From positions 124,001 to 188,000 of the forward strand of contig NZ_BCTJ01000003.1 in assembly GCF_001571225.1 (NCBI RefSeq): a stretch of 64,000 bases of DNA, in the 5' to 3' direction. Both the position numbers and the translations under genes were made by a program. A model generated the notes under the pieces. It worked only from the letters and a program-made list of their open reading frames with translations. It made no database searches and was not told the DNA's origin. Shown here piece by piece: positions 43,810 to 55,445 of this stretch. Origin of the DNA: Hydrogenophaga palleronii NBRC 102513. Lineage in GTDB: Bacteria; Pseudomonadota; Gammaproteobacteria; Burkholderiales; Burkholderiaceae_C. Positions within the stretch are counted from its first letter, which is position 1. Each line of letters begins with the position of its first letter.

Positions 43810-45666
43810 ATGAGCAACCTTTGGGATCTCTCCGGCATCCAGCCACAAACCGACGTGGTGCTGGAGGGCGACACCATCCCCGCCCTGTTCTGGAACGGCG
43901 TGGCCGCGCGCGGCCCCCAGGTCTGGATGCGGCAGAAAGACTTCGGCATCTGGCGCGCCTGGACCTGGGACCAGACCGGCACCGCGGTGCGCGAGATCGC
44001 CCACGGCCTGATGGCGCTGGGCTTCGAGTCGCGCGATACCGCGTCCATCCTCTCCAACACCACGGTGGAATGGGTGCTCTGCGACCTGGCCGTGCTGAGC
44101 GCGGGCGGCGTGTCCAACGGCATCTACCCGACCGACGCGGCCGAGCAGGTGCAGTACCTGTGCGAGGACTCGCGCACCACCATGCTGTTCGTGGAAGACG
44201 ACGAGCAGCTGGACAAGGCACTGGCCGTGCGCGCGCAGCTGCCGCTGCTGAAGAAGATCATCGTGAGCGACATGGACGGCCTGCGCGACCTCGACGACCC
44301 GCAGGTGATCAGCCTGGCGGCGCTGCGCGAGATCGGCCGCGAGCACCTGCGGCAGCATCCGCAGATGCTGGACGCGCGCGTGGCCGCCATCCAACCCGAG
44401 GAACTGGCCATCCTGGTCTACACCTCGGGCACCACCGGCCGGCCCAAGGGCGCGATGCACAGCCACCACGGCCTGGTCTACACCGTGCGCGGCTACAACA
44501 CGCTGATCGCCCGCAACCAGGACGACGAGTGCATGTGCTTCCTGCCGCTCTGCCACATCGCCGAGCGCATGGGGGGCGAGTACTTCTCGCTCTACACCGG
44601 CGCCAGGCTCAACTTCGTGGAGAACCCCGAAACCGTGCCGGAGAACGTGCGCGAGATCGCACCGACGGTGTTCACCGCCGTGCCACGGGTGTGGGAGAAG
44701 TTCTATTCGGGCGTGATGATCACGCTCAAGGAAGCCGGCAAGGTTCAGCAAGGCGCCTACGCCTGGGCCATCGGCGTCGGCCAGCAGGTGGCCGACCTGG
44801 TGATGGCCGGCCAGCCGGTGCCCGCCAGCCTGCGCATGCGCTTCACCGTGGCGCGCCTGCTGGTGCTGGACAACGTGCGCAAGCTCATCGGCATCCACCG
44901 TGCGCGTTTCCTCGTCACCGGCGCGGCGCCGATCTCGCCCGATCTGGTGCGCTGGTACCTGGCGCTGGGCGTGCCCATGCTGGAGGTGTGGGGCATGACG
45001 GAAACCTGCGGCGCCGCCACGGGTGTGCCGGCCGCGCGCATCAAGCCCGGCTCCATCGGCCCGGCGGCCAGCTACAACCAGATCCGGCTCGATGCGCAGA
45101 CCGGCGAGATCCTGGTGCGCGGGCCCAACGTGTTCATGGGTTACCTCAACCTGCCCGAGAAAACCGCCGAGACCATCGATGCCGATGGCTGGCTGCACAC
45201 CGGCGACGTGGGCACGGTCGATGAGGAAGGGTTTTTCCGCATCACCGACCGCATGAAAGACATCATCATCACCGCAGGGGGCAAGAACATCACGCCGAGC
45301 GAGCTGGAGAACGAACTCAAGTTCTCGCCGTACGTGACCGACGCCGTGGTGATCGGTGACAAGCGGCCCTACCTCACCGTCATCATCATGATCGACCAGG
45401 AAAACGTGGAGAAGTACGCACAGGACAACGACGTGCCGTTTTCCAACTACGCCAGCCTGACCCGGTCGACCGAGGTGCAGGCCCTGATCCAGACCGAGAT
45501 CGAACGCGTGAACAAGAAGTTTGCGCGCGTCGAACAGATCAAGAAGTTCTTCCTGCTCGACACGCAACTCAGTGCCGAAGACGAAGAACTCACCCCCACC
45601 ATGAAGCTCAAGCGCAAGCTGCTGCAGACCAAGTACGAACCCCAGATCGAAGCCATGTACCGCTGA
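43810..45666 (+). CDS. AMP-dependent acyl-CoA ligase (long-chain type)
   Basis: The 618-residue adenylate-forming enzyme makes acyl-CoA from a free acid, ATP and CoA. The P-loop-like YTSGTTGRPKGAM is near residue 205, WGMTETCG near residue 396, DGWLHTGDVG near 460 and the GGKNITPSELEN core with its Lys near 495; the catalytic Lys lies in MKLKRKLL. Sequence type is long-chain/ACSBG-like. It sits between livF and two binding proteins, so the importer and ligase probably serve one substrate. It could fill the role of AtuH in the proposed terpenoid pathway. Confidence 0.88.
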   Translation: MSNLWDLSGIQPQTDVVLEGDTIPALFWNGVAARGPQVWMRQKDFGIWRAWTWDQTGTAVREIAHGLMALGFESRDTASILSNTTVEWVLCDLAVLSAGGVSNGIYPTDAAEQVQYLCEDSRTTMLFVEDDEQLDKALAVRAQLPLLKKIIVSDMDGLRDLDDPQVISLAALREIGREHLRQHPQMLDARVAAIQPEELAILVYTSGTTGRPKGAMHSHHGLVYTVRGYNTLIARNQDDECMCFLPLCHIAERMGGEYFSLYTGARLNFVENPETVPENVREIAPTVFTAVPRVWEKFYSGVMITLKEAGKVQQGAYAWAIGVGQQVADLVMAGQPVPASLRMRFTVARLLVLDNVRKLIGIHRARFLVTGAAPISPDLVRWYLALGVPMLEVWGMTETCGAATGVPAARIKPGSIGPAASYNQIRLDAQTGEILVRGPNVFMGYLNLPEKTAETIDADGWLHTGDVGTVDEEGFFRITDRMKDIIITAGGKNITPSELENELKFSPYVTDAVVIGDKRPYLTVIIMIDQENVEKYAQDNDVPFSNYASLTRSTEVQALIQTEIERVNKKFARVEQIKKFFLLDTQLSAEDEELTPTMKLKRKLLQTKYEPQIEAMYR

Positions 45667-45711
45667 AGCGGCCACCTTTCCCCCCGCCCATCAACCCCCA
45701 GGAGACCCACT

Positions 45712-46878
45712 GTGAGCACCTCCCGACACACCCTGATCGCCTTCGCACTGAGCCTCTCGGCCGGTGCCGTCCTCGCGCAGACGCAGGGCGTGAGCAAGGA
45801 CGAGATCGTGCTCGGCTCCATCCAGGATCTCTCTGGCCCGCTGGCCGGCTTCGGCAAGTCGGTGCGGCAAGGCATGATGCTGCGCGTTGACGAAATCAAC
45901 GAACAAGGTGGCATCAACGGCCGCAAGATCCGTCTGCTGGTGGAAGACAGCAAATACGACCCGCGCAACGCGGTGCTGGCGGCACAGAAACTGGTCAACC
46001 AGGAAAAGATCTTCGCCATGGTTGGCCACCTGGGCACCGCGCAGAACATGGCGGCGATGACAGTGCAGTTTCCGAAGAACGTGGTGAACTTCTTGCCCGT
46101 GACGGCGGCACGCGAAATGTACGAGCCCTTCCACAAGCTCAAGTTCGCCAGCATCGCGCCTTACTACGAGCAGATGCGCATCTTCCTGCCGCGCATGGTG
46201 CAGGAGAAAAAACCCAAGGCGGTGTGTGCGATCTACCAGGACGACGAGTTCGGCCTGGAAGTGCTGCGCGGCGCGGAAGAAGGCCTGAAGGCCGTGAACA
46301 TGACGTTGGTGGAAAAGACCTCGTTCAAGCGCGGCGCCACCGACTTCTCCTCGCAGGTGGCGCGCATGAAGGCGGCCAACTGCGACCTCGTGGTGCTGGG
46401 CACCATCATCCGCGAGACCATCGGCACCATTGGCACCGCGCGCAAGCTGGACTACAACCCCACCTTCTTCGGCTCGCAGGCGGCCTACACCGACCTGATC
46501 CACAAGCTGGGCGGCCCGGCCATGAACGGCCTGTACGCCACCATGACCATCCAGCATCCCTACCTGGACGAGACCTCGCAGCCTATCCGCTTCTGGGCCA
46601 ACAAGTTCAAGACCAAGTTCAACGAAGATCCCAACGTGTTCTCGGTCTACGGCTACAACGCGATCGACATCTTCGCCCGTGCGGCAGGCCGAACCGGTGC
46701 AAACCTCACCACTGACGCATTTGTCAAGACCATGGACAGCCTGACCGTGCCAGCCGACATCTTCGGTTCGCCCGAGCTGCGCTTCAGCCCGCAGCGCCGC
46801 TACGGCAGCATGGCCACGCGCCTGTCGCAGATTCAGGATGGGCGCTGGAAGGTCACCTCGGAGTATGTGAACCAGTGA
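45712..46878 (+). CDS. Branched-chain-type ABC transporter substrate-binding protein 1
   Basis: The 388-residue periplasmic protein has a signal peptide (residues about 1-23, ending SAGAVLAQ) and the Peripla_BP_6 fold (DEIVLGSIQDLSGPLAGFGK, NEQGGINGRKIRLLVEDSKY, MVGHLGTAQNMAAM). The start is GTG at 45712 with AGGAG 9 bases upstream. The next gene is a close paralogue, so there was a tandem duplication. Ligand unknown; the context with an acyl-CoA ligase suggests a carboxylic acid rather than leucine. Confidence 0.9.
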   Translation: MSTSRHTLIAFALSLSAGAVLAQTQGVSKDEIVLGSIQDLSGPLAGFGKSVRQGMMLRVDEINEQGGINGRKIRLLVEDSKYDPRNAVLAAQKLVNQEKIFAMVGHLGTAQNMAAMTVQFPKNVVNFLPVTAAREMYEPFHKLKFASIAPYYEQMRIFLPRMVQEKKPKAVCAIYQDDEFGLEVLRGAEEGLKAVNMTLVEKTSFKRGATDFSSQVARMKAANCDLVVLGTIIRETIGTIGTARKLDYNPTFFGSQAAYTDLIHKLGGPAMNGLYATMTIQHPYLDETSQPIRFWANKFKTKFNEDPNVFSVYGYNAIDIFARAAGRTGANLTTDAFVKTMDSLTVPADIFGSPELRFSPQRRYGSMATRLSQIQDGRWKVTSEYVNQ

Positions 46879-46965
46879 AGCAGGGTCGCCCCCACAGGGA
46901 TCCGATAGAGAACAAGAAGAAGCGCTGCTTTTCGATGTGAATACAACTTTCAGGAGACAAGCACC

Positions 46966-48138
46966 ATGAAGAACACACTGACTCTGATGGCCACGGCGCT
47001 CGCGCTTGGCGGCACCGGCGGCGCCGCTTTTGCGCAGTCGCAGGGCGTGAGCAAGGACGAGATCACGCTGGGCAGCATCCAGGATATGTCGGGCCCGCTT
47101 GCCGCTTTCGGCAAGCAAGTTCGAATGGGCATGCTGCTGCGTGTGGACGAGGTCAACGAACAAGGCGGCATCAACGGCCGCAAGGTCAAGTTGCTGGTGG
47201 AAGACTCTGGCTACGACCCCAAGCGCGCGGTGCTGGCGGCACAGAAGCTGGTGAACCAGGACAAGATCTTCATGATGGTCGGCCACATCGGCACGGCGCA
47301 GAACATGGCCGCCATGCCGGTGCAGTTCCAGAAGAACGTGATCAACTTCTTCCCTGTGACGGCCGCGCGCGAAATGTACGAGCCCTTCCACAAGCTCAAG
47401 TACTCCTTCGCAGCCACCTACTACGACCAGATGAAGATCGTGGTGCCCAAGCTGGCGAAAGAAAAAGGCGCCAAGAAGGTCTGCACCATGTACCAGGACG
47501 ACGAGTTTGGCCTCGAAGTGAAACGCGGTGCCGAAGACGGCCTGAAGGCAGCCGGCATGACCCTGGCGGTGGAGACCACCTACAAACGCGGCGCCACCGA
47601 CTTCGCCTCACAAATGCAGAAGCTGCAGGCCGAACAGTGCGACCTGGTGGTGATGGGCACCATCATCCGCGAGACCATCGGCGGCATCGCCACCGCGAAG
47701 CGCCTGGGCTTCAACCCCACCTTCGTTGGCTCCAGCGCGGCCTACACCGACCTCATCCACAAGCTCGGCGGCCCTGCCATGAACGGCTTCTACGCCGCCA
47801 TGACGGTGCAGAACCCCTACACCGACGAAGCCTCGCAGCCGATCCGCTTCTGGGCCAACAAGTACAAGACCAAGTTCAACGACGACCCGACCGTGTTCTC
47901 GGTGTACGGCTACTCGGCCATCGACGCCTTCCTGCGCGCGGCCGGCAAAACCGGCGGCAACCTCAACACCGAAACCTTCATCAAGGCGATGGACACCATG
48001 ACCATTCCGCCCGACATCTTCGGCAGCGCCGAAATGACCTTCGGCCCGCAGAAGCGCCTGGGCAGCAACGCCACCCGCCTGTCCCAACTGGTCGACAATC
48101 GCTGGAAGGTGGTGTCCGACTACACGAGAATCCAATAA
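46966..48138 (+). CDS. Branched-chain-type ABC transporter substrate-binding protein 2
   Basis: The 390-residue paralogue of the preceding protein has its own signal peptide (ending GGAAFAQ) and ribosome site (AGGAG before ATG 46966). Long stretches are identical or nearly so, for example the NEQGGINGRK and FPVTAAREMYEPFHKLK regions, while ligand-facing segments differ (QMKIVVPKLAKEK versus QMRIFLPRMVQEK). A strong terminator follows about 95 bases later, ending the operon. Two binding proteins could widen the substrate range. Confidence 0.9.
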   Translation: MKNTLTLMATALALGGTGGAAFAQSQGVSKDEITLGSIQDMSGPLAAFGKQVRMGMLLRVDEVNEQGGINGRKVKLLVEDSGYDPKRAVLAAQKLVNQDKIFMMVGHIGTAQNMAAMPVQFQKNVINFFPVTAAREMYEPFHKLKYSFAATYYDQMKIVVPKLAKEKGAKKVCTMYQDDEFGLEVKRGAEDGLKAAGMTLAVETTYKRGATDFASQMQKLQAEQCDLVVMGTIIRETIGGIATAKRLGFNPTFVGSSAAYTDLIHKLGGPAMNGFYAAMTVQNPYTDEASQPIRFWANKYKTKFNDDPTVFSVYGYSAIDAFLRAAGKTGGNLNTETFIKAMDTMTIPPDIFGSAEMTFGPQKRLGSNATRLSQLVDNRWKVVSDYTRIQ

Positions 48139-48232
48139 GCAAAAGATAACTAGAAGGATGACATGGTGATGGAAGACTGACAGCCTGAGTTCACCCATAT
48201 CGCGACGCCTGCTTCGGCAGGCCATGCGTGAA

Positions 48233-48264
48233 CCGCCAGCGCCCCGTGCGCTGGCGGTTTTTTT
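48233..48264 (+). terminator. Strong intrinsic terminator of the liv operon
   Basis: CCGCCAGCGC, CCCGT loop, GCGCTGGCGG gives a perfect 10-bp stem followed directly by seven T (48258-48264). It closes the livHMGF-ligase-binding-protein operon. The stretch 48139-48299 holds nothing else. Confidence 0.93.
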
Positions 48265-48299
48265 ACGCCCGACGACAGCGCGATGACTACCATGGGGCG

Positions 48300-48767
48300 G
48301 TGATCAACACACCACTCAGCCCCACCACCGCCGCCCTGCTGGCCGACGCCCTGCTCGCGCTGCACGTGGGCGTCGTGCTCTTCGTGGTGGGCCTGCTGCC
48401 GCTGGTGCTGCTGGGCGGCGCACTCGGCTGGCGCTGGGTGCGCCACCGCGGCCTGCGCCTCACGCATCTGGGCTTGATGGTGTTCATCGTGGTCCAGACC
48501 TGGCTGGGCCAGCTGTGCCCCCTCACCGTGTGGGAGCAGAACCTGAGGCAGATGGCCGGCCAGGGCAGCTACCGCGAGAGCTTCATCGAACACTGGCTTT
48601 CAAGGCTGCTGTATTGGGACGCGCCTTGGTGGGTGTTTGTGGCGGGGTATACCGGGTTTGCGGCGTTGGTGGGGGTGGGTTGGTGGTGGGTGAGGCCGGG
48701 ATCAATCCGCAGTGGAAAGCCAACCAAGACAACAGCTGTCTCTCGCATAAAAAAAGTGGACCTGTGA
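48300..48767 (+). CDS. DUF2784 membrane protein with an altered C-terminus
   Basis: The 155-residue protein has three to four membrane helices and the DUF2784 pattern (ALLALHVGVVLFVVGLLPLV, LTHLGLMVFIVVQTWLGQLC, CPLTVWEQNLR, FIEHWLSRLLYWDAPWWVF). The start is GTG at 48300, after the terminator; an upstream frame-start would lie inside the terminator and is not used. The last 25 codons (IRSGKPTKTTAVSRIKKVDL) fall in lower-GC DNA and do not look like the family end, so the insertion of the restriction-modification genes may have replaced the original C-terminus. Confidence 0.75.
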   Translation: MINTPLSPTTAALLADALLALHVGVVLFVVGLLPLVLLGGALGWRWVRHRGLRLTHLGLMVFIVVQTWLGQLCPLTVWEQNLRQMAGQGSYRESFIEHWLSRLLYWDAPWWVFVAGYTGFAALVGVGWWWVRPGSIRSGKPTKTTAVSRIKKVDL

Positions 48768-48804
48768 GAAGAGGCGTCGACTCAAGGGCTCGTCAAAATA
48801 TCGA

Positions 48805-48833
48805 TCGACAGCCCGACTCGGCACTTGTAAGAT
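48805..48833 (+). promoter_or_regulatory. Promoter of the restriction-modification operon
   Basis: TCGACA (48805-48810), exactly 17 bp, then TAAGAT (48828-48833) fits a sigma-70 promoter, with a start near 48840 and a leader of about 30 bases to the methyltransferase ATG. The DNA is A/T-richer than the host region. A palindromic ATCGAT lies at its upstream edge. No separate controller-protein gene is present. Confidence 0.55.
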
Positions 48834-48870
48834 ACCCACGTCACATGTTCATCTTTATCACGCGCACCAA

Positions 48871-50148
48871 ATGAATCGACCCATCGGAGTAGACCTGTTC
48901 GCGGGCGCAGGCGGCCTTTCACTTGGATTCGAGCAAGCCGGGTTCGACGTTGTGGCAGCAGTTGAAATCGACCCCATACATTGTGCGATTCACGAACGAA
49001 ATTTTCCGCTAACGAAGACGATTTGTGCAAGCGTTGTCAACCTAACGGGGACAGATCTACGCAGGCTAGCTGGTCTGGGCTCTACAGACATTGATGTGGT
49101 CTTCGGCGGAGCACCATGTCAAGGCTTTTCTTTAATCGGCAAACGCGCACTAGATGACGAAAGAAATCAGCTAGTGTTTCACTACGTTCGGCTGATAAGG
49201 GAGCTACAGCCCAAGTACTTCGTTTTCGAAAATGTGAAGGGCCTTACGCTTGGCCTTCATTCGAAATTTCTACACGAACTAATAGATGCACTAGCCGACG
49301 CCGGGTACGACGTACTCACGCCGTACCAAGTTCTAAATGCGTCGTCCTACGGGGTCCCTCAAGACCGGAAGCGGCTGTTTTTGATGGGTGCTAGACGTGG
49401 TCTCACGTTGCCCACATATCCCAAGCCCCTCAATCAAACGGTCACGGTCGCTGACGCTATCGGAGACCTGCCCGATGCCGACAAATTCAAAACGCTTAAG
49501 GTCAGCGACTCTGTTTCCGTCAAGTGGGAGACGCTGTCAATTTATGGCCGCCGACTTCGCGATCTAGAGAGAGACCCGTTGGACTTCGGGTATCGACGCG
49601 AGTTTGATCGAGACCTCTTGTCATCGAGCCTGCGCACAGAACATACTCAAGTCTCGAAGCAGCGGTTCCGAGCAACTCTGCCAGGGGAAACTGAGCCCAT
49701 TAGCAGGTTCAGAAAGTTGCCAAGTGATGGGTTGTGCAACACGCTGCGAGCGGGCACTGACAGCGCAAGAGGTGCATTTACATCTCCACGCCCAATTCAC
49801 CCGACAGCGCCTCGGGTGATCACCGTTCGCGAAGCAGCAAGACTCCATTCTTTTCCAGATTGGTTCCGATTTCACTCGACCAAATGGCACGGGTTTCGTC
49901 AAATCGGAAACAGCGTTCCTCCGCTACTCGGAAGAGCTGTTGCAGCTGAAGTGCTCAAGGCTCTCGGGCTTAAACCGAGCAAGCCTCAGGAGAAATTGCA
50001 GCCCGGCCTCGCCGAGCTGCTGCAGTTCGATATGGGACAGGCGGCGCGGCACTTTGAAGTTCCACGGAACACCATTGCTCAACGCTCGCGCGCACGTGAA
50101 ATCCTGACAGCAGAAGAGACAGCCGAGTCTCAAGCTCAACATGCCTAA
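48871..50148 (+). CDS. DNA (cytosine-5-)-methyltransferase with HTH-like C-terminal tail
   Basis: The 425-residue enzyme carries all key motifs of Dcm-type methyltransferases: DLFAGAGGLSLG (residues 8-19, SAM binding), GGAPCQGFS with catalytic Cys83, FENVKG (119-124), QDRKRLF (164-170), the target-recognition region about 190-310 and RQIGNSVPP (343-351). It protects DNA against a partner nuclease; the recognition sequence is unknown. The last 60 residues are extra and contain DMGQAARHFEVPRNTIAQRS (387-406), which looks like a helix-turn-helix and could give autoregulation. GC content is low: two 60-base lines counted gave 48% and 57%. The nuclease-like gene starts 3 bases after its stop. Confidence 0.92.
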   Translation: MNRPIGVDLFAGAGGLSLGFEQAGFDVVAAVEIDPIHCAIHERNFPLTKTICASVVNLTGTDLRRLAGLGSTDIDVVFGGAPCQGFSLIGKRALDDERNQLVFHYVRLIRELQPKYFVFENVKGLTLGLHSKFLHELIDALADAGYDVLTPYQVLNASSYGVPQDRKRLFLMGARRGLTLPTYPKPLNQTVTVADAIGDLPDADKFKTLKVSDSVSVKWETLSIYGRRLRDLERDPLDFGYRREFDRDLLSSSLRTEHTQVSKQRFRATLPGETEPISRFRKLPSDGLCNTLRAGTDSARGAFTSPRPIHPTAPRVITVREAARLHSFPDWFRFHSTKWHGFRQIGNSVPPLLGRAVAAEVLKALGLKPSKPQEKLQPGLAELLQFDMGQAARHFEVPRNTIAQRSRAREILTAEETAESQAQHA

Positions 50149-50151
50149 GAC

Positions 50152-50970
50152 ATGACCACAGACATCTCGACAAGTCCTGCCCGCGGATCGGCCCACCGCT
50201 ACAAGCTCATCATTGCTCACATTTTTAAGACGCATTACAGAGCGGGCTCCACCGGCTTCGATTTCAACCGAGAGGAAATCAACGAAGCGGCAACTTTCCT
50301 AAAGCTGCCGCTTATAAAGAATGTCGGAGACCTCCCTTACACGTTTCGCTACCGCGTAGATCTGCCGGAAGAAATCACAAGCACAGCCAAGGCAGGCTAT
50401 GAATGGATTATCAGAGGCGCCGGACAAGCGATGTACCGGTTCAAGCAGATTCGTAAGGTGCGCATCAGCCCCCGAGAGGAGTTGGTGAAAGTCAAAATTC
50501 CAGATGCGACGCCCGAAATCATCGTGGCGTACGCCATGACTGATGAGCAAGCACTGCTAGCTAAGGTTCGTTACAACAGGCTCATCGACATCTTCCTCGG
50601 CGTGACAACTTACTCTTTGCAAAGCCATCTACGCACGACTGTCAAAGATATTGGTCAGATTGAAATTGATGAGGTATACGTCGGAGTTGATCGAAATGGC
50701 GGCCAGTACATCATCCCCGTCCAAGCAAAGGGCGGTAGTGATCGCCACGGGGTCACGCAGACTGAGCAAGACATCCTTTGGTGCGCTCAACGTTTCCCCA
50801 ACTTGAAATGCCGCGCTATTTCGGCGCAGTTCACGCAAGAGGGGCATATCGTCATGTTCGAACTGACGCTGCAACAGGAACAAATTTTTGTCGTGGACGA
50901 GCGTCACTATCAACTCGTTCCAGCGAACTCGATAAGTGCAGAGGATCTGCGAACCTACGCAGCGAAATAG
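50152..50970 (+). CDS. Putative type II restriction endonuclease (PD-(D/E)xK-like), family not recognised
   Basis: The 272-residue protein follows the methyltransferase after 3 bases, the usual place for the partner nuclease. I do not recognise the family. In the second half, EIDEVYVGVD (171-180), a turn, and IIPVQAKGG (187-195) form a strand-turn-strand with Glu171/Asp173/Glu174 and Gln191-Ala-Lys193, a pattern of PD-(D/E)xK nucleases in the QxK variant. The N-terminal part (FNREEINEAATFLKLPLIKN, then YTFRYRVDLPEEI) looks like a winged-helix recognition domain. YNRLIDIFLG and SLQSHLR may complete the core. It is not a Vsr protein. Low GC agrees with transfer together with the methyltransferase. 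Confidence 0.7.
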   Translation: MTTDISTSPARGSAHRYKLIIAHIFKTHYRAGSTGFDFNREEINEAATFLKLPLIKNVGDLPYTFRYRVDLPEEITSTAKAGYEWIIRGAGQAMYRFKQIRKVRISPREELVKVKIPDATPEIIVAYAMTDEQALLAKVRYNRLIDIFLGVTTYSLQSHLRTTVKDIGQIEIDEVYVGVDRNGGQYIIPVQAKGGSDRHGVTQTEQDILWCAQRFPNLKCRAISAQFTQEGHIVMFELTLQQEQIFVVDERHYQLVPANSISAEDLRTYAAK

Positions 50971-51013
50971 CTATCTCGAACTCGGCTGTGAACTCAAGCA
51001 TTACCTTCAAGTT

Positions 51014-51520
51014 TCAAGACACGATATAAGCCCCAGCCCCCGCACAAAGCAACTTCCCATCCGCCCCCCGAAACTCCATGCGTGTGTTGGCCACGCGGGA
51101 GCCCAGGCGCAGCACTTCGGCGTGCATGTCGAAATGCACGCCCACGCAGGGGCGCAGGTAGTCGATGCGCAGGTCGATGGTGCCGAGTTTGCTGAAGCGT
51201 TGCAGGCGCTGCAGCGGCTCTTCGTTCAAGTGGCGTGCGCCGATGGCGGCGATGCAGGCGAGGCCGCCCAGGGCGTCGAGGCAGGCACTGACCACGCCGC
51301 CGTGCACGCGGCCGTGCTGGTAGTGGCCGATGAGTTCGGGCTTCATCTGGATGCGTCCGGTCACGCGCTCGGGGGTGATGTCCTGGATCTTCAGGCCCAG
51401 CACTTTGTTGAAGACGATCTTCTCTTCAAACAGGTCTTTGAGCTGCACGATGAACTCGGGCTCGAAGACCACCGGGGTGGCGGCGGGGTGGGTATTGGAT
51501 GTGGCGTGTTTGCTGCTCAT
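51014..51520 (-). CDS. PaaI-type hotdog thioesterase
   Basis: The 168-residue hotdog protein has the PaaI-like motif HYQHGRVHGGVVSACLDALGG (split here by function: the HGGVV with its Asp/Asn-like active residues) followed by TIDLRIDYLRPCVG. It likely hydrolyses an acyl-CoA of the neighbouring catabolic operon. ATG at 51520 overlaps the stop of the broken acyl-CoA dehydrogenase (ATGA); ATG at 51529 is possible. It is the last gene of the atu-like operon and touches the foreign island at 51013. Confidence 0.85.
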   Translation of the reverse strand: MSSKHATSNTHPAATPVVFEPEFIVQLKDLFEEKIVFNKVLGLKIQDITPERVTGRIQMKPELIGHYQHGRVHGGVVSACLDALGGLACIAAIGARHLNEEPLQRLQRFSKLGTIDLRIDYLRPCVGVHFDMHAEVLRLGSRVANTRMEFRGADGKLLCAGAGAYIVS

Positions 51521-52669
51521 AGGTTCCATTGCCGGGCGGCGAGTTCTTTCATGATTTCTTCAGCACCGCCGCCGATCATCATCACCTTCACTTCGCGGTA
51601 CACGCGCTCGCTCACGGTGCCGCGCATGTAGCCCATGCCGCCGAGGATCTGCACCGCGGCGTCGGCGCAGAACTGCATGGCCTGGGTGGCGTGGTTCTTG
51701 AGCAGGCAGACGTTGGCCACCCAGTCGGTGCCTTCGTCGCCCGCGTCCACGCGCGCGCCCAGCGCTTCCAGCCAGGCCTGGGTGGACTGGATGCGCATCT
51801 GCATGTCCATGAGTTTGTGGCGGATCACCTGGCGTTCGATCAGCGCGGCGCCGAAGGTGTTGCGTTGCCGCGCCCAGGCCAGGGCTTCGTCGTAGCAGGC
51901 CTCGGCAAAGCCGAGTGCCATGGCAGACAGGGCCAGGCGCTCGCCGTTGAAGTTGCCCATGATCATGCGAAAGCCCGCGCCCTCCGCGCCCAGGCGGTAG
52001 CGCACGGGCACGCGCACGCCGTCGAAGCGCAGTTGCGCGGTGTCCGAGCACAGCCAGCCCATCTTGCTCAGCGCGGTGCGCGAGAGGCCGGGCGTGTGGC
52101 AGGGCACGGCGATCATCGAGATGCCGCCAGCGCCCGGTGCGCACGGCCAGCGTGATCCAGTCGCAGCGCATGCCGGAGGTGATGAAGATTTTTTCGCCGT
52201 CGATGACGTAGTGATCACCATCCAGCCGCGCGGTGGTGCGCAGCGCAGCCACGTCGGAGCCGCCGCCGGCTTCGGTGATGCCGAGCGCGGCGATCTGCTC
52301 GCCGCGCAGCACCGGCGGCACCACCTCCTGCTGCAGCTCGGGCGTGCCGTGTGCCAGCACGGGCGGCAGGCCGATGTTGTGGGTGAACAGGCTGGCCATC
52401 ACGCCGCCGCTGCCACCATAGCGCGCCAGCGTGCGCGACATGGCGTTGCGCGTGCTCCAGGGCGCGGGCGTGCCGCCCAGGTGTTCGGGGTAACCGAGGC
52501 CGAGCAGCCCGATGTCGGCGGCCTGGCGGTGCAGTGAGCGCGGCAGTTCGCCTGCGTCTTCCCAGGCGGCCACGTTCGGCGCAATGGCCTGGGTGGCGAA
52601 GCGCTGCACGGTGTCCACCAGGGCGCTGCGGTCTTCGGCGGTAAAGGCGTGATCAGGACTGGGGTTCAT
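51517..52669 (-). pseudogene. Acyl-CoA dehydrogenase interrupted by a frameshift
   Basis: The first part (from ATG 52669) reads a normal acyl-CoA dehydrogenase to FITSGMRCDWITLAVRTG. The frame then goes wrong and the homologous sequence resumes in the next frame with GGISMIAVPCHTPGLSRTAL, FDGVRVPV, and the catalytic-domain end LGGMGYMRGTVSERVYREVK, IGGGAEEIMKELAARQW. The shift is at 52131-52138, in a GGGCG run on the minus strand; the total of 1153 bases is one base more than a whole number of codons, so one extra base (or two lost) explains it. Repaired, it would have about 383 residues, normal for the family. It follows the biotin carboxylase gene. Confidence 0.85.
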
Positions 52670-52692
52670 GGCGCCATTCAGGGGTGTTCAGG

Positions 52693-54654
52693 TCACGCGG
52701 CAAAGCCAATGAGCAACTGGCCGGGCGCCAGCTGCTGGCCCACGACCACCGACACGCTGTCGACGGTGGCGTCGCGCGGGGCGGCCAGGGTGTGTTCGAG
52801 CTTCATGGATTCGATCACCAGCAAGGGGCTGCCCCGGGTGACGTGGTCGCCGGGCGCCACGTGCACGGCGATCAGCTTGCCGTTGAAGGGCGCGCGCAGT
52901 TCGCGCGCGGCGGCACCGCCACCGGCGCGTTCGCGCGGCGCCAGGCTGAGGTCGGTCAGCGCCAGGGTGTGTGCACCCGCCTGCGCCTGCCAGCGGCCAG
53001 GGCCATCGAGCGCGGCCAGAGCCACCGGCCAGGTGACGCCGTCCACCACCACGCGCACGATGCCGTCGCGGCCGGCGGCCTGCACGCGGGCGGCCACGCA
53101 ACGCTCGCCCCACGACACGCGCAGCGCACCGCCCGGCCCAGCTTCCAGCACCGAAATCTCCAGCGGCGGTTGCGTATCGTCGCCGTGCGCCCAGCGCAGC
53201 GGACGCGCGAACGGGCACGGCAGCGCTGCGGCGGCGCTGGCGGACGGCGCCTGTGCGGGGAAGGCGGCCGCGAGGATGGCGGCCAGCACCGCGTCAGGTG
53301 GTGGTTGCAGCATGCTGCGCACCGCGTCGCCCTCGTCGGCCAGGAAGGCGATCAGCGCGCCGCCTTCATGGAACACCGGGTGGCGCAAACAGGCGGCCAG
53401 AAAGCCACGGTTGGTGGGCAGGCCGAGCACGCGCGTCTGGTCCAGCGCGTGGGCCAGGCGGTCGATCGCTTCGCGGCGCGTGGGCGCGTGCACGATGAGC
53501 TTGCCCAGCATGGCGTCGTAGTGCGGCGTGATCTCGCTGCCGGTCTCCAGTGCGTGGTCGAAGCGCTGGCCGGGCACGGCGGGTGGTTCGTCGAAGCGCA
53601 GCACGCGCCCGGTGTGCGGCGTGTGTTGGTCGTCCTCGGCGCACAGGCGCACTTCGATGGCGTGGCCGTTGAAAGTGATGGCTTCTTGCGCCAGCGGCAG
53701 TGCTTCGCCGCGCGCCACGCGCAGTTGCCACGCCACGAGGTCGAGGCCGGTCAGGGCTTCGGTCACCGGGTGTTCCACCTGCAGGCGGGTGTTCATCTCC
53801 ATCAGGAAGAACGCATTGCCTTCAAGCAGGAACTCGACCGTGCCCACGCCCACGTAGCCCGCCGCTTGTGCCAGCGCCACGGCGCAGCGGCCGAGCTCGG
53901 CGCGCAGCGCGGGCGACACCGCCGGGCTGGGTGCTTCTTCGATGATCTTCTGGTGCCGGCGCTGCACCGAACAGTCGCGCTCGCCCAGGTGCACGCAGTG
54001 GCCCAGCGCGTCGGCAAACACCTGCACCTCCACATGGCGCGGGCGCAGCAGGGCGCGTTCGATCAGCAGGTCGCCATTGGCAAAACCGGCCAGCGCTTCG
54101 GAGCGCGCGCTGGCCAGCGCGGGCAGCAGCTGGGCGGCCTCGTGCACCAGGCGCATGCCGCGGCCACCGCCACCGGCCACGGCTTTCACCATGAGCGGAA
54201 AACCGATGCGCTGCGCTTCGGCCACAAAGGTCTGATCGCGCTGGTCGTCGCCGAAGTAACCCGGCAGGCAGGGAACGCCGTGCGCGATGGCCAGGGCCTT
54301 GGCGGCCGACTTGCTGCCCAGCGCGCGGATGGCCGCAGGTGGCGGGCCAACCCAGACCAGGCCGGCGTCGATCACGGCCTGCGCGAAGTCGGCGTTTTCG
54401 CTCAGGAAACCGTAGCCGGGGTGCACCGCGTCGGCGTTGGTGGCCACGGCGGCGTCGAGCAGGCGGTCGACCCGCAAGTACGAATCGGCAGAGGACGCGC
54501 CGCCGAGCGCATAGGCGCTGGTGGCTTCGCGCACGTGCAGCGCCTGGGCGTCGGGTTCCGAATACACGGCCACGGTTTCGATGCCCATGGCGTGGGCGGT
54601 GCGGATGATTCTTCGGGCAATCTCCCCGCGATTGGCAATCAGCAGTCGCTTCAT
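52693..54654 (-). CDS. atuF: Acyl-CoA carboxylase alpha subunit (biotin carboxylase + biotin carrier), AtuF-like
   Basis: The 653-residue subunit carboxylates its own biotin using ATP and bicarbonate. It has the biotin carboxylase domain (KRLLIANRGEIARRIIRTAH; ATP loop GGGGRGM; EMNTRLQVEHPVTE with catalytic Glu/Arg), a linker, and the carrier domain with the biotinylated Lys in VIESMKLEHTL near residue 618. In the atu pathway this subunit works with AtuC on geranyl-CoA; methylcrotonyl-CoA carboxylase is a close alternative. ATG at 54654 overlaps the stop of the hydratase gene. Confidence 0.85.
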   Translation of the reverse strand: MKRLLIANRGEIARRIIRTAHAMGIETVAVYSEPDAQALHVREATSAYALGGASSADSYLRVDRLLDAAVATNADAVHPGYGFLSENADFAQAVIDAGLVWVGPPPAAIRALGSKSAAKALAIAHGVPCLPGYFGDDQRDQTFVAEAQRIGFPLMVKAVAGGGGRGMRLVHEAAQLLPALASARSEALAGFANGDLLIERALLRPRHVEVQVFADALGHCVHLGERDCSVQRRHQKIIEEAPSPAVSPALRAELGRCAVALAQAAGYVGVGTVEFLLEGNAFFLMEMNTRLQVEHPVTEALTGLDLVAWQLRVARGEALPLAQEAITFNGHAIEVRLCAEDDQHTPHTGRVLRFDEPPAVPGQRFDHALETGSEITPHYDAMLGKLIVHAPTRREAIDRLAHALDQTRVLGLPTNRGFLAACLRHPVFHEGGALIAFLADEGDAVRSMLQPPPDAVLAAILAAAFPAQAPSASAAAALPCPFARPLRWAHGDDTQPPLEISVLEAGPGGALRVSWGERCVAARVQAAGRDGIVRVVVDGVTWPVALAALDGPGRWQAQAGAHTLALTDLSLAPRERAGGGAAARELRAPFNGKLIAVHVAPGDHVTRGSPLLVIESMKLEHTLAAPRDATVDSVSVVVGQQLAPGQLLIGFAA

Positions 54655-55445
54655 GGTGTGTCGGCCCAGGGCGCAGGTTGTTTCTTGGCGAACGCGACCA
54701 GGCCACCAGCCGCTTCGGGGCTGCGCAGTGCGCTGGCGAATGCGATGGCGGCTTCGCTGCGCAGGTCGGGCACATCGGTGCGCAGGCGCTGCAACAGGCG
54801 TTTGGTGCTGGCCACCGCGGCCGGTGCGGCGCGGCACATCTGCAACACGCGCTGGCGCAGCGCGGTGTCGAGCGCGCCATCGGCCACCACCTCGTCCACC
54901 AGCCCCAGGGTGCGTGCGCCCTCGGCGTTGTAGCTGCGGCCTTGCAGCAGGCACTGGCGCGCGGCGGCGTCGCCCAGGCGTTGCCAGACGAAGGGCGCGA
55001 TCTGCGCCGGTGGCAGGCCCAGCGTCACCTCGGGCGTGGCGAAGCTGGAGCTTTCGGTGGCGATCACGTGGTCGGCGCAGCACAGCAGGCCAAAGCCGCC
55101 ACCCATGGCCGGACCGTCCACCGCGGCCACCAGCAGTTGCGGCAACGCACAGAGTGCGTGCAGCGTGTCACCGAACACGCGGTTGAGCGCGATCAGCGGA
55201 TCGTCCTCGCCAGCTTGCAGCGGCTGGCCGATGGCGCTGGCGAAACGGCCCAGGCTGCCGCCGGCACTGAAGGCACCCGGCGCGCCGGTGAGGATGACCA
55301 CACGCAGGGTCTCGTCCTGCTGCGCGCGCAGGCAGGCCTCGTACAGGCCGAGCACCATGGCGTCGCTCAGGGCGTTGCGCGTGGTGGGGTCGTTGAGGGT
55401 CCAGCGCTCCACCGCGCCCGCGCGTTCGGTCAGAAAAGTGCTCAT
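54651..55445 (-). CDS. atuE: Enoyl-CoA hydratase family protein, AtuE-like
   Basis: The 264-residue crotonase-fold protein has GAPGAFSAGGSLGRF near residue 58 (first oxyanion stretch, with SAGG in place of CAGAD) and AAVDGPAMGGGFGLLCCAD near residue 107. At the position between the carboxyltransferase/dehydrogenase and the biotin carboxylase genes, the counterpart is AtuE, isohexenylglutaconyl-CoA hydratase. The exact substrate is inferred from order only. It is coupled to atuF by ATGA. Confidence 0.75.
   Translation of the reverse strand: MSTFLTERAGAVERWTLNDPTTRNALSDAMVLGLYEACLRAQQDETLRVVILTGAPGAFSAGGSLGRFASAIGQPLQAGEDDPLIALNRVFGDTLHALCALPQLLVAAVDGPAMGGGFGLLCCADHVIATESSSFATPEVTLGLPPAQIAPFVWQRLGDAAARQCLLQGRSYNAEGARTLGLVDEVVADGALDTALRQRVLQMCRAAPAAVASTKRLLQRLRTDVPDLRSEAAIAFASALRSPEAAGGLVAFAKKQPAPWADTP

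Follow-up and report, generated by a model that had tools for sequence, protein, structure and literature searches.

What do two adjacent low-GC genes, lying between host metabolic genes on the Hydrogenophaga palleronii chromosome, encode, and were they acquired from elsewhere? A preliminary description of the locus read them as a foreign restriction-modification island, i.e.: a 5mC methyltransferase followed by an unrecognised nuclease. We analysed both genes (M and R, Table 1) in the window, the whole 64-kb stretch of DNA under study, and compared them with their relatives in other genomes and plasmids. Judging from sequence comparison, M and R very probably form an orthodox type II restriction-modification system of two genes that was acquired horizontally, and it would be an ordinary and probably working one. 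The basis computed here for this reading is homology, gene linkage, intact motifs, foreign composition and patchy distribution.

Table 1. Features of the locus, in positions of the window.
Feature	Position	Strand	Details
DUF2784 host gene, upstream island boundary	48300-48767 (ORF open from 48228)	+	PF10861 E 7.8e-24
Leader 5' of M	48768-48870	+	one sigma-70-like match at 48805-48833
M, C5-cytosine DNA methyltransferase	48871-50148	+	ATG start, 425 aa, intact; PF00145 E 5.9e-69; PADLOC MTase_II PDLC03326 E 1.5e-172
Helix-turn-helix-like conserved tail of M	49990-50148		residues about 374-425
R, type II restriction endonuclease (predicted)	50152-50970	+	ATG start, 272 aa, intact; PADLOC REase_II PDLC03404 E 9.5e-117, residues 15-270/272
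4HBT thioesterase host gene, downstream island boundary	51014-51529	-	PF03061 E 5.4e-9
Acyl-CoA dehydrogenase (putative), split	51517-52669	-	two overlapping ORFs in different frames, 369 + 234 aa

The gene pair does look foreign by composition. In a GC scan of the 64 kb (segments of 2.1 kb, step of 100 bases), the segment with M and R was the lowest of the window (53%, against a window mean of 67%), and the eight lowest segments all start within 48501-49201. GC is 0.539 in M and 0.518 in R vs 0.617-0.715 in five neighbouring genes, and GC3 is 0.53 and 0.60 vs 0.83-0.89 in the same five. The values of 48% and 57% first given for the pair were those of single lines and do not hold as gene averages (54% for M, 52% for R), although the low GC itself does. 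Similarly, the gene positions first proposed were correct, including a second gene of 272 residues that starts 3 bases past the stop of the first, but the island does not begin at 48690: its coding part starts with M and is preceded by the leader. The sigma-70-like match in this leader is not clearly above chance, and the two strands of 48600-51120 together hold 3 promoter-like sites vs 1.1 expected (sd 1.2). Terminal repeats of a diagnostic kind were not seen in 48600-51120, nor was any tRNA within 45000-55000. The upstream flank also includes a liv-type periplasmic binding protein (Pfam), and past the thioesterase we read an acyl-CoA dehydrogenase and a biotin carboxylase, by eye from the ORF list only. 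The putative dehydrogenase is split in the window; in four regions of the same genus (L095, L097, L099, and L107) there is a single ORF of 386-389 aa in its place, and the split reflects either disruption of the gene or an error in the sequencing.

We then looked at the distribution of R and at the insertion spot among relatives. R was found in its own genome only, among 60 searched (its own, 35 of the same genus and 24 of the same order), so that none of the other 35 genomes of the genus has it. Together with the foreign composition, this supports the proposed horizontal transfer of the pair. As a marker of the insertion spot we used the downstream thioesterase gene, which has a DNA match in 31 of those 35 genomes (at E <= 1e-69 in 29), and compared 14 same-genus regions around it. 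From 13 of these, 20 ORFs picked by eye were scanned with PADLOC, the first 10 also with Pfam; the remaining region (L096) stops less than 0.5 kb from the thioesterase gene. Defence-type genes lie on the island side of the marker in 7 of the 14 regions: a Schlafen-group-3 helicase domain and PDC-S41 (L095 and L100), Z1 and DUF4420 genes (L099), a different C5-methyltransferase with an FRG gene and a GmrSD_N gene (L101), an HNH nuclease with another C5-methyltransferase, 1.5 kb or more off (L104), a type IV REase-like and a SoFic-like gene (L098), and a PD-T4-3-like gene (E 6.7e-11) about 1.7 kb off (L102). A GIY-YIG-like gene, judged by eye, is also among the defence-type genes of the genus at this spot. 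Five regions (L095, L099, L100, L103, and L107) show both DUF2784 and the thioesterase, and in three of these the defence-type genes lie between the two, the same interval as the island of the window. Six regions (L097, L103, L105, L106, L107, and L108) gave no defence match among the ORFs scanned, and a clean empty site was not found in the relatives examined. The interval next to this thioesterase gene of a catabolic operon is likely a defence hot spot in the genus.

The first gene is a complete 5mC methyltransferase, as had been proposed. Apart from the PF00145 match in Table 1, it matches TIGR00675 (E 1.1e-59), and carries the catalytic PCQ (residues 82-84) along with the other family motifs, FxGxG (10-14), ENV (120-122) and QxRxR (164-168). 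The motif columns are invariant in 54 aligned sequences, i.e.: the window and 53 of the 64 non-self loci, omitting those with a stop in the aligned frame (L002, L007, and L045-L048), with M on the opposite strand (L037), with a long ORF extension (L040), with a partial M (L049 and L057) or with none (L063). M was modelled by AlphaFold2 with a pLDDT of 88.1 and a pTM of 0.89; its target recognition region would, from position, span residues roughly 200-290. M is also the sole PF00145 match of the host genome at E <= 0.001.

Beyond these motifs, the C-terminal 45 residues of M form a motif kept in distant members, with L383, M388, A391, I402, R405, and R407 conserved at 90% or more. The model places short helices at 381-385 and 388-394 of this tail, and Pfam similarity to helix-turn-helix families is sub-threshold (E 0.012 and 0.022). 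Since the ORF list shows no controller gene next to the pair, the tail is possibly autoregulatory, yet that it binds DNA or regulates its own operon is conjecture.

The second gene, R, had been described as a nuclease of no named family, which has to be corrected: a PADLOC type II restriction enzyme profile (PDLC03404) matches it near full length, and also matches 66 of 66 rows of the R alignment. The alignment combines the sequence of the window with those of 6 viral-contig loci and of 59 among the 64 non-self genome loci (L049, L051, L062, L063, and L064, with short or interrupted matches, are omitted); one of the 66 members also weakly matches the PADLOC model IetA (E 4e-4). Pfam gave no match to R at E <= 1 (best E across all 66 members: 0.033) and NCBIfam no significant match (best E 0.076), while PDB sequence searches gave no credible match, whether the query was R itself (best E 0.24) or the R profile. 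Scans with Pfam, NCBIfam, and PADLOC saw no ATPase or helicase domain in R. By its sequence, then, R is a member of a catalogued type II REase profile family that has no Pfam model. The searches we made returned no named enzyme, cleavage target or solved structure for this family and no experiments on R or a named close homologue, and term searches of the open-licence literature found no paper on it.

To ask what kind of nuclease this could be, we examined an AlphaFold2 model of R from the 66-row alignment (pLDDT 88.5, pTM 0.79). In residues 10-101 the predicted order is helix, strand, helix, helix(es), strand, strand, and from this topology, rather than from any fold match showing it, the N-terminal part may be winged-helix-like. 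Residues 131-227 are predicted to hold helices, strands 152-164, 168-179, and 185-194, a helix at 201-214 and a strand at 222-227. D173 is on the second and Q191-x-K193 on the third of these core strands, so that the predicted fold presents a D and then a (D/E/Q)xK on successive strands, and the region of about 131-227 is compatible with a PD-(D/E)xK core. All 66 rows have E171, D173, Q191, and K193 (A192 is kept in 65 of them), and likewise the residues from G168 to Y176 and P189. Metal-dependent catalysis would fall to D173, Q191, and K193.

In a Foldseek search against the PDB, ranks 1-6 and 8 were ACE1 and EndoMS/NucS-type nucleases, with E of 2.5e-3 to 1e-2 and TM of 0.21-0.26; none reached E <= 0.001, so that even the best match to a solved PD-(D/E)xK member (E 2.5e-3, TM 0.26) is weak. 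EndoMS and ACE1 (Cas4-family) belong to the PD-(D/E)xK superfamily. The protein at rank 7 is unrelated, as are most of those from rank 9 on (conoid fibre, SAS-6, Rep15, and ribosomal proteins); a few nucleases, SSO0001 and AdnAB for instance, also appear at these later ranks. As these matches are weak, the fold assignment leans mostly on topology and on the invariant residues. At this computational level, the points first noted in R hold: E171/D173 and QAK 191-193 are where they had been placed, their PD-(D/E)xK-like arrangement agrees with the expected core order of the predicted fold, and the possible winged helix at the N-terminus agrees with the topology of residues 10-101.

We sought relatives of R in 84,980 species genomes by exact peptide patterns from R, a scan that therefore finds close relatives. 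At least 80 stretches matched the patterns, and at least 64 non-self relatives were confirmed. M is encoded in the same locus as R in 63 of the 64 listed non-self genome loci, at most about 0.9 kb away: in one locus (L037) it is on the opposite strand, and in another (L040) its match ends about 0.85 kb ahead of that of R. The sole locus with no M (L063) is on a contig that starts within R (near query residue 104), and the genome loci found gave no case of R kept without the methyltransferase. The proposed type II pairing is borne out by this linkage and by the REase_II profile, with a cognate endonuclease gene adjacent to M and co-inherited with it. Very-short-patch repair genes are typical beside 5mC systems, and a Vsr-like gene is present in 23 of 70 loci of R relatives, and also at L072:4222-4680; none was recognised beside the pair of the window, as read from the ORF list only.

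The family spans Pseudomonadota, Verrucomicrobiota, Cyanobacteria, Acidobacteria, Bacillota, and mobilizable plasmids. PLSDB has 65 plasmid records with R relatives, of which 39 are from Klebsiella and 17 from Salmonella, and 57 are typed mobilizable; many of the plasmid homologues are annotated merely as 'hypothetical protein', and in three small plasmids examined a DNA cytosine methyltransferase gene overlaps R. The phage collection gave no record with an R relative, and six viral-classed contigs of IMG/VR (L066-L071) carry relatives 62-64% identical to R, which suggests prophage carriage or misclassified islands.

We also asked if palindrome counts could reveal the recognition sequence. Among 6-mers, CCGCGG showed the strongest depletion in the 64 carrier loci (349 seen vs 630 expected), and it was depleted too in the 14 same-genus control regions (87 vs 132). 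Ten proteobacterial carriers compared to the same-genus controls gave a z of -2.1, the lowest of 39 words. We do not claim CCGCGG as the site, and dropped it, because the controls are depleted too and z is just -2.1. Among 16 four-letter words, with carrier and control groups unmatched by taxon, TGCA (z -4.9) and GGCC (z -4.6) were low. CTGCAG was absent from six cyanobacterial loci (0 vs 18.4 expected), as were three other words. Among 12 chosen genomes, five carriers showed a depletion of CTGCAG and two non-carriers showed it to the same degree; carrier G071 did not, nor did the host genome (5137 sites vs 1011 for the reversed control). The rarity is extreme in those seven genomes (G060, G108-G110, G112, G113, and G116), which have 3-17 sites vs 201-282 for the reversed control, and the other five genomes counted show no such pattern. 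Palindrome avoidance was set aside as a route to the site, the counts giving no clean answer.

In the system that we propose, M would methylate cytosine (5mC) in a short sequence of host DNA, and R, of PD-(D/E)xK type with a QxK variant and a winged-helix-like N-terminal part, would cut the same sequence where it lacks the mark. Its targets would be unmarked incoming DNA, e.g. of a phage or plasmid. Cleavage by R, a specificity common to M and R, and phage restriction are what we infer for the pair. A relic could nevertheless look just as intact, with only M, or neither gene, working. The lack of CTGCAG avoidance in the host genome (5137 sites) would agree with an inactive pair, yet it says little on activity because CTGCAG is a candidate site only; neither ORF is truncated, both retain the family-invariant residues, and we regard inactivity as very unlikely.

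The active site of R raises another alternative. The invariant motif is Q191-x-K193 and not D/E-x-K, and Mrr-like enzymes have QxK, as would be expected if R were a modification-dependent enzyme of the Mrr-like type IV kind, with the methylase beside it serving something else. Yet with a C5-methyltransferase adjacent in 63 of 64 loci, an R that cut its mark would be self-destructive, and the PADLOC model that R matches is a type II and not a type IV one, which makes this alternative barely credible. The reading as an acquired type II system is that of the preliminary description, which was right in substance, with support from tool results at the computational level. A more ambitious version is possible but doubtful: R would represent a sizeable PD-(D/E)xK restriction family, new to biochemistry, with an invariant QIEIDE...PVQAK-type site and a recognition part resembling a winged helix, and the helix-turn-helix-like tail of M would repress its own operon, replacing a controller.

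How does the pair compare with known systems? EndoMS/NucS and ACE1, the top Foldseek matches to R at the TM given above, are absent from the PDB sequence search results and are nucleases of different biology. The Eco29kI-type system of Salmonella plasmid pC is likewise a small-plasmid 5mC restriction-modification system, with a nuclease annotated as Eco29kI family. Eco29kI is a GIY-YIG enzyme. We rejected membership in this type: the methyltransferase of pC is 29% identical to M, and pC is not among the 60 listed of the 65 plasmid records with R relatives. The label 'Modification methylase AplI' stands on some Klebsiella plasmid M genes next to an R of the family, and the AplI nuclease of Arthrospira platensis, according to PMC5741684, cuts CTGCAG. 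In the record examined this label sits on a shortened M ORF of 738 bases, while comparable records say 'HaeIII'; the 'AplI' label is probably an automatic best-match name, and both labels are leads only. In the family of a Lyngbya carrier, 11 of 61 genomes have a match (4 of the 11 as fragments only), with a locus GC of 36-40% in the four best-matching carriers and of 40% and 44% in two others; a plasmid search with one such locus gave a 40-base match only.

The closest likeness is to the PADLOC profiles REase_II PDLC03404 and MTase_II PDLC03326, which both genes match near full length; nothing tested sets the pair apart from this profile family, which is unnamed and does not correspond to a named enzyme. 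The small-plasmid systems of Klebsiella, Salmonella, and Citrobacter likewise have M followed by R, in genes that overlap, and their R is 52-55% identical to that of the window in full-length listed matches, but they are plasmid-borne, whereas the pair of the window is chromosomal and lies between metabolic genes. The finding is that of a defence pair of a catalogued kind, at a likely hot spot of the genus, which in relatives is occupied by different defence genes. With it, a broadly spread restriction-modification family, whose R has no Pfam or NCBIfam match and no structure detected by sequence, gains a chromosomal member.
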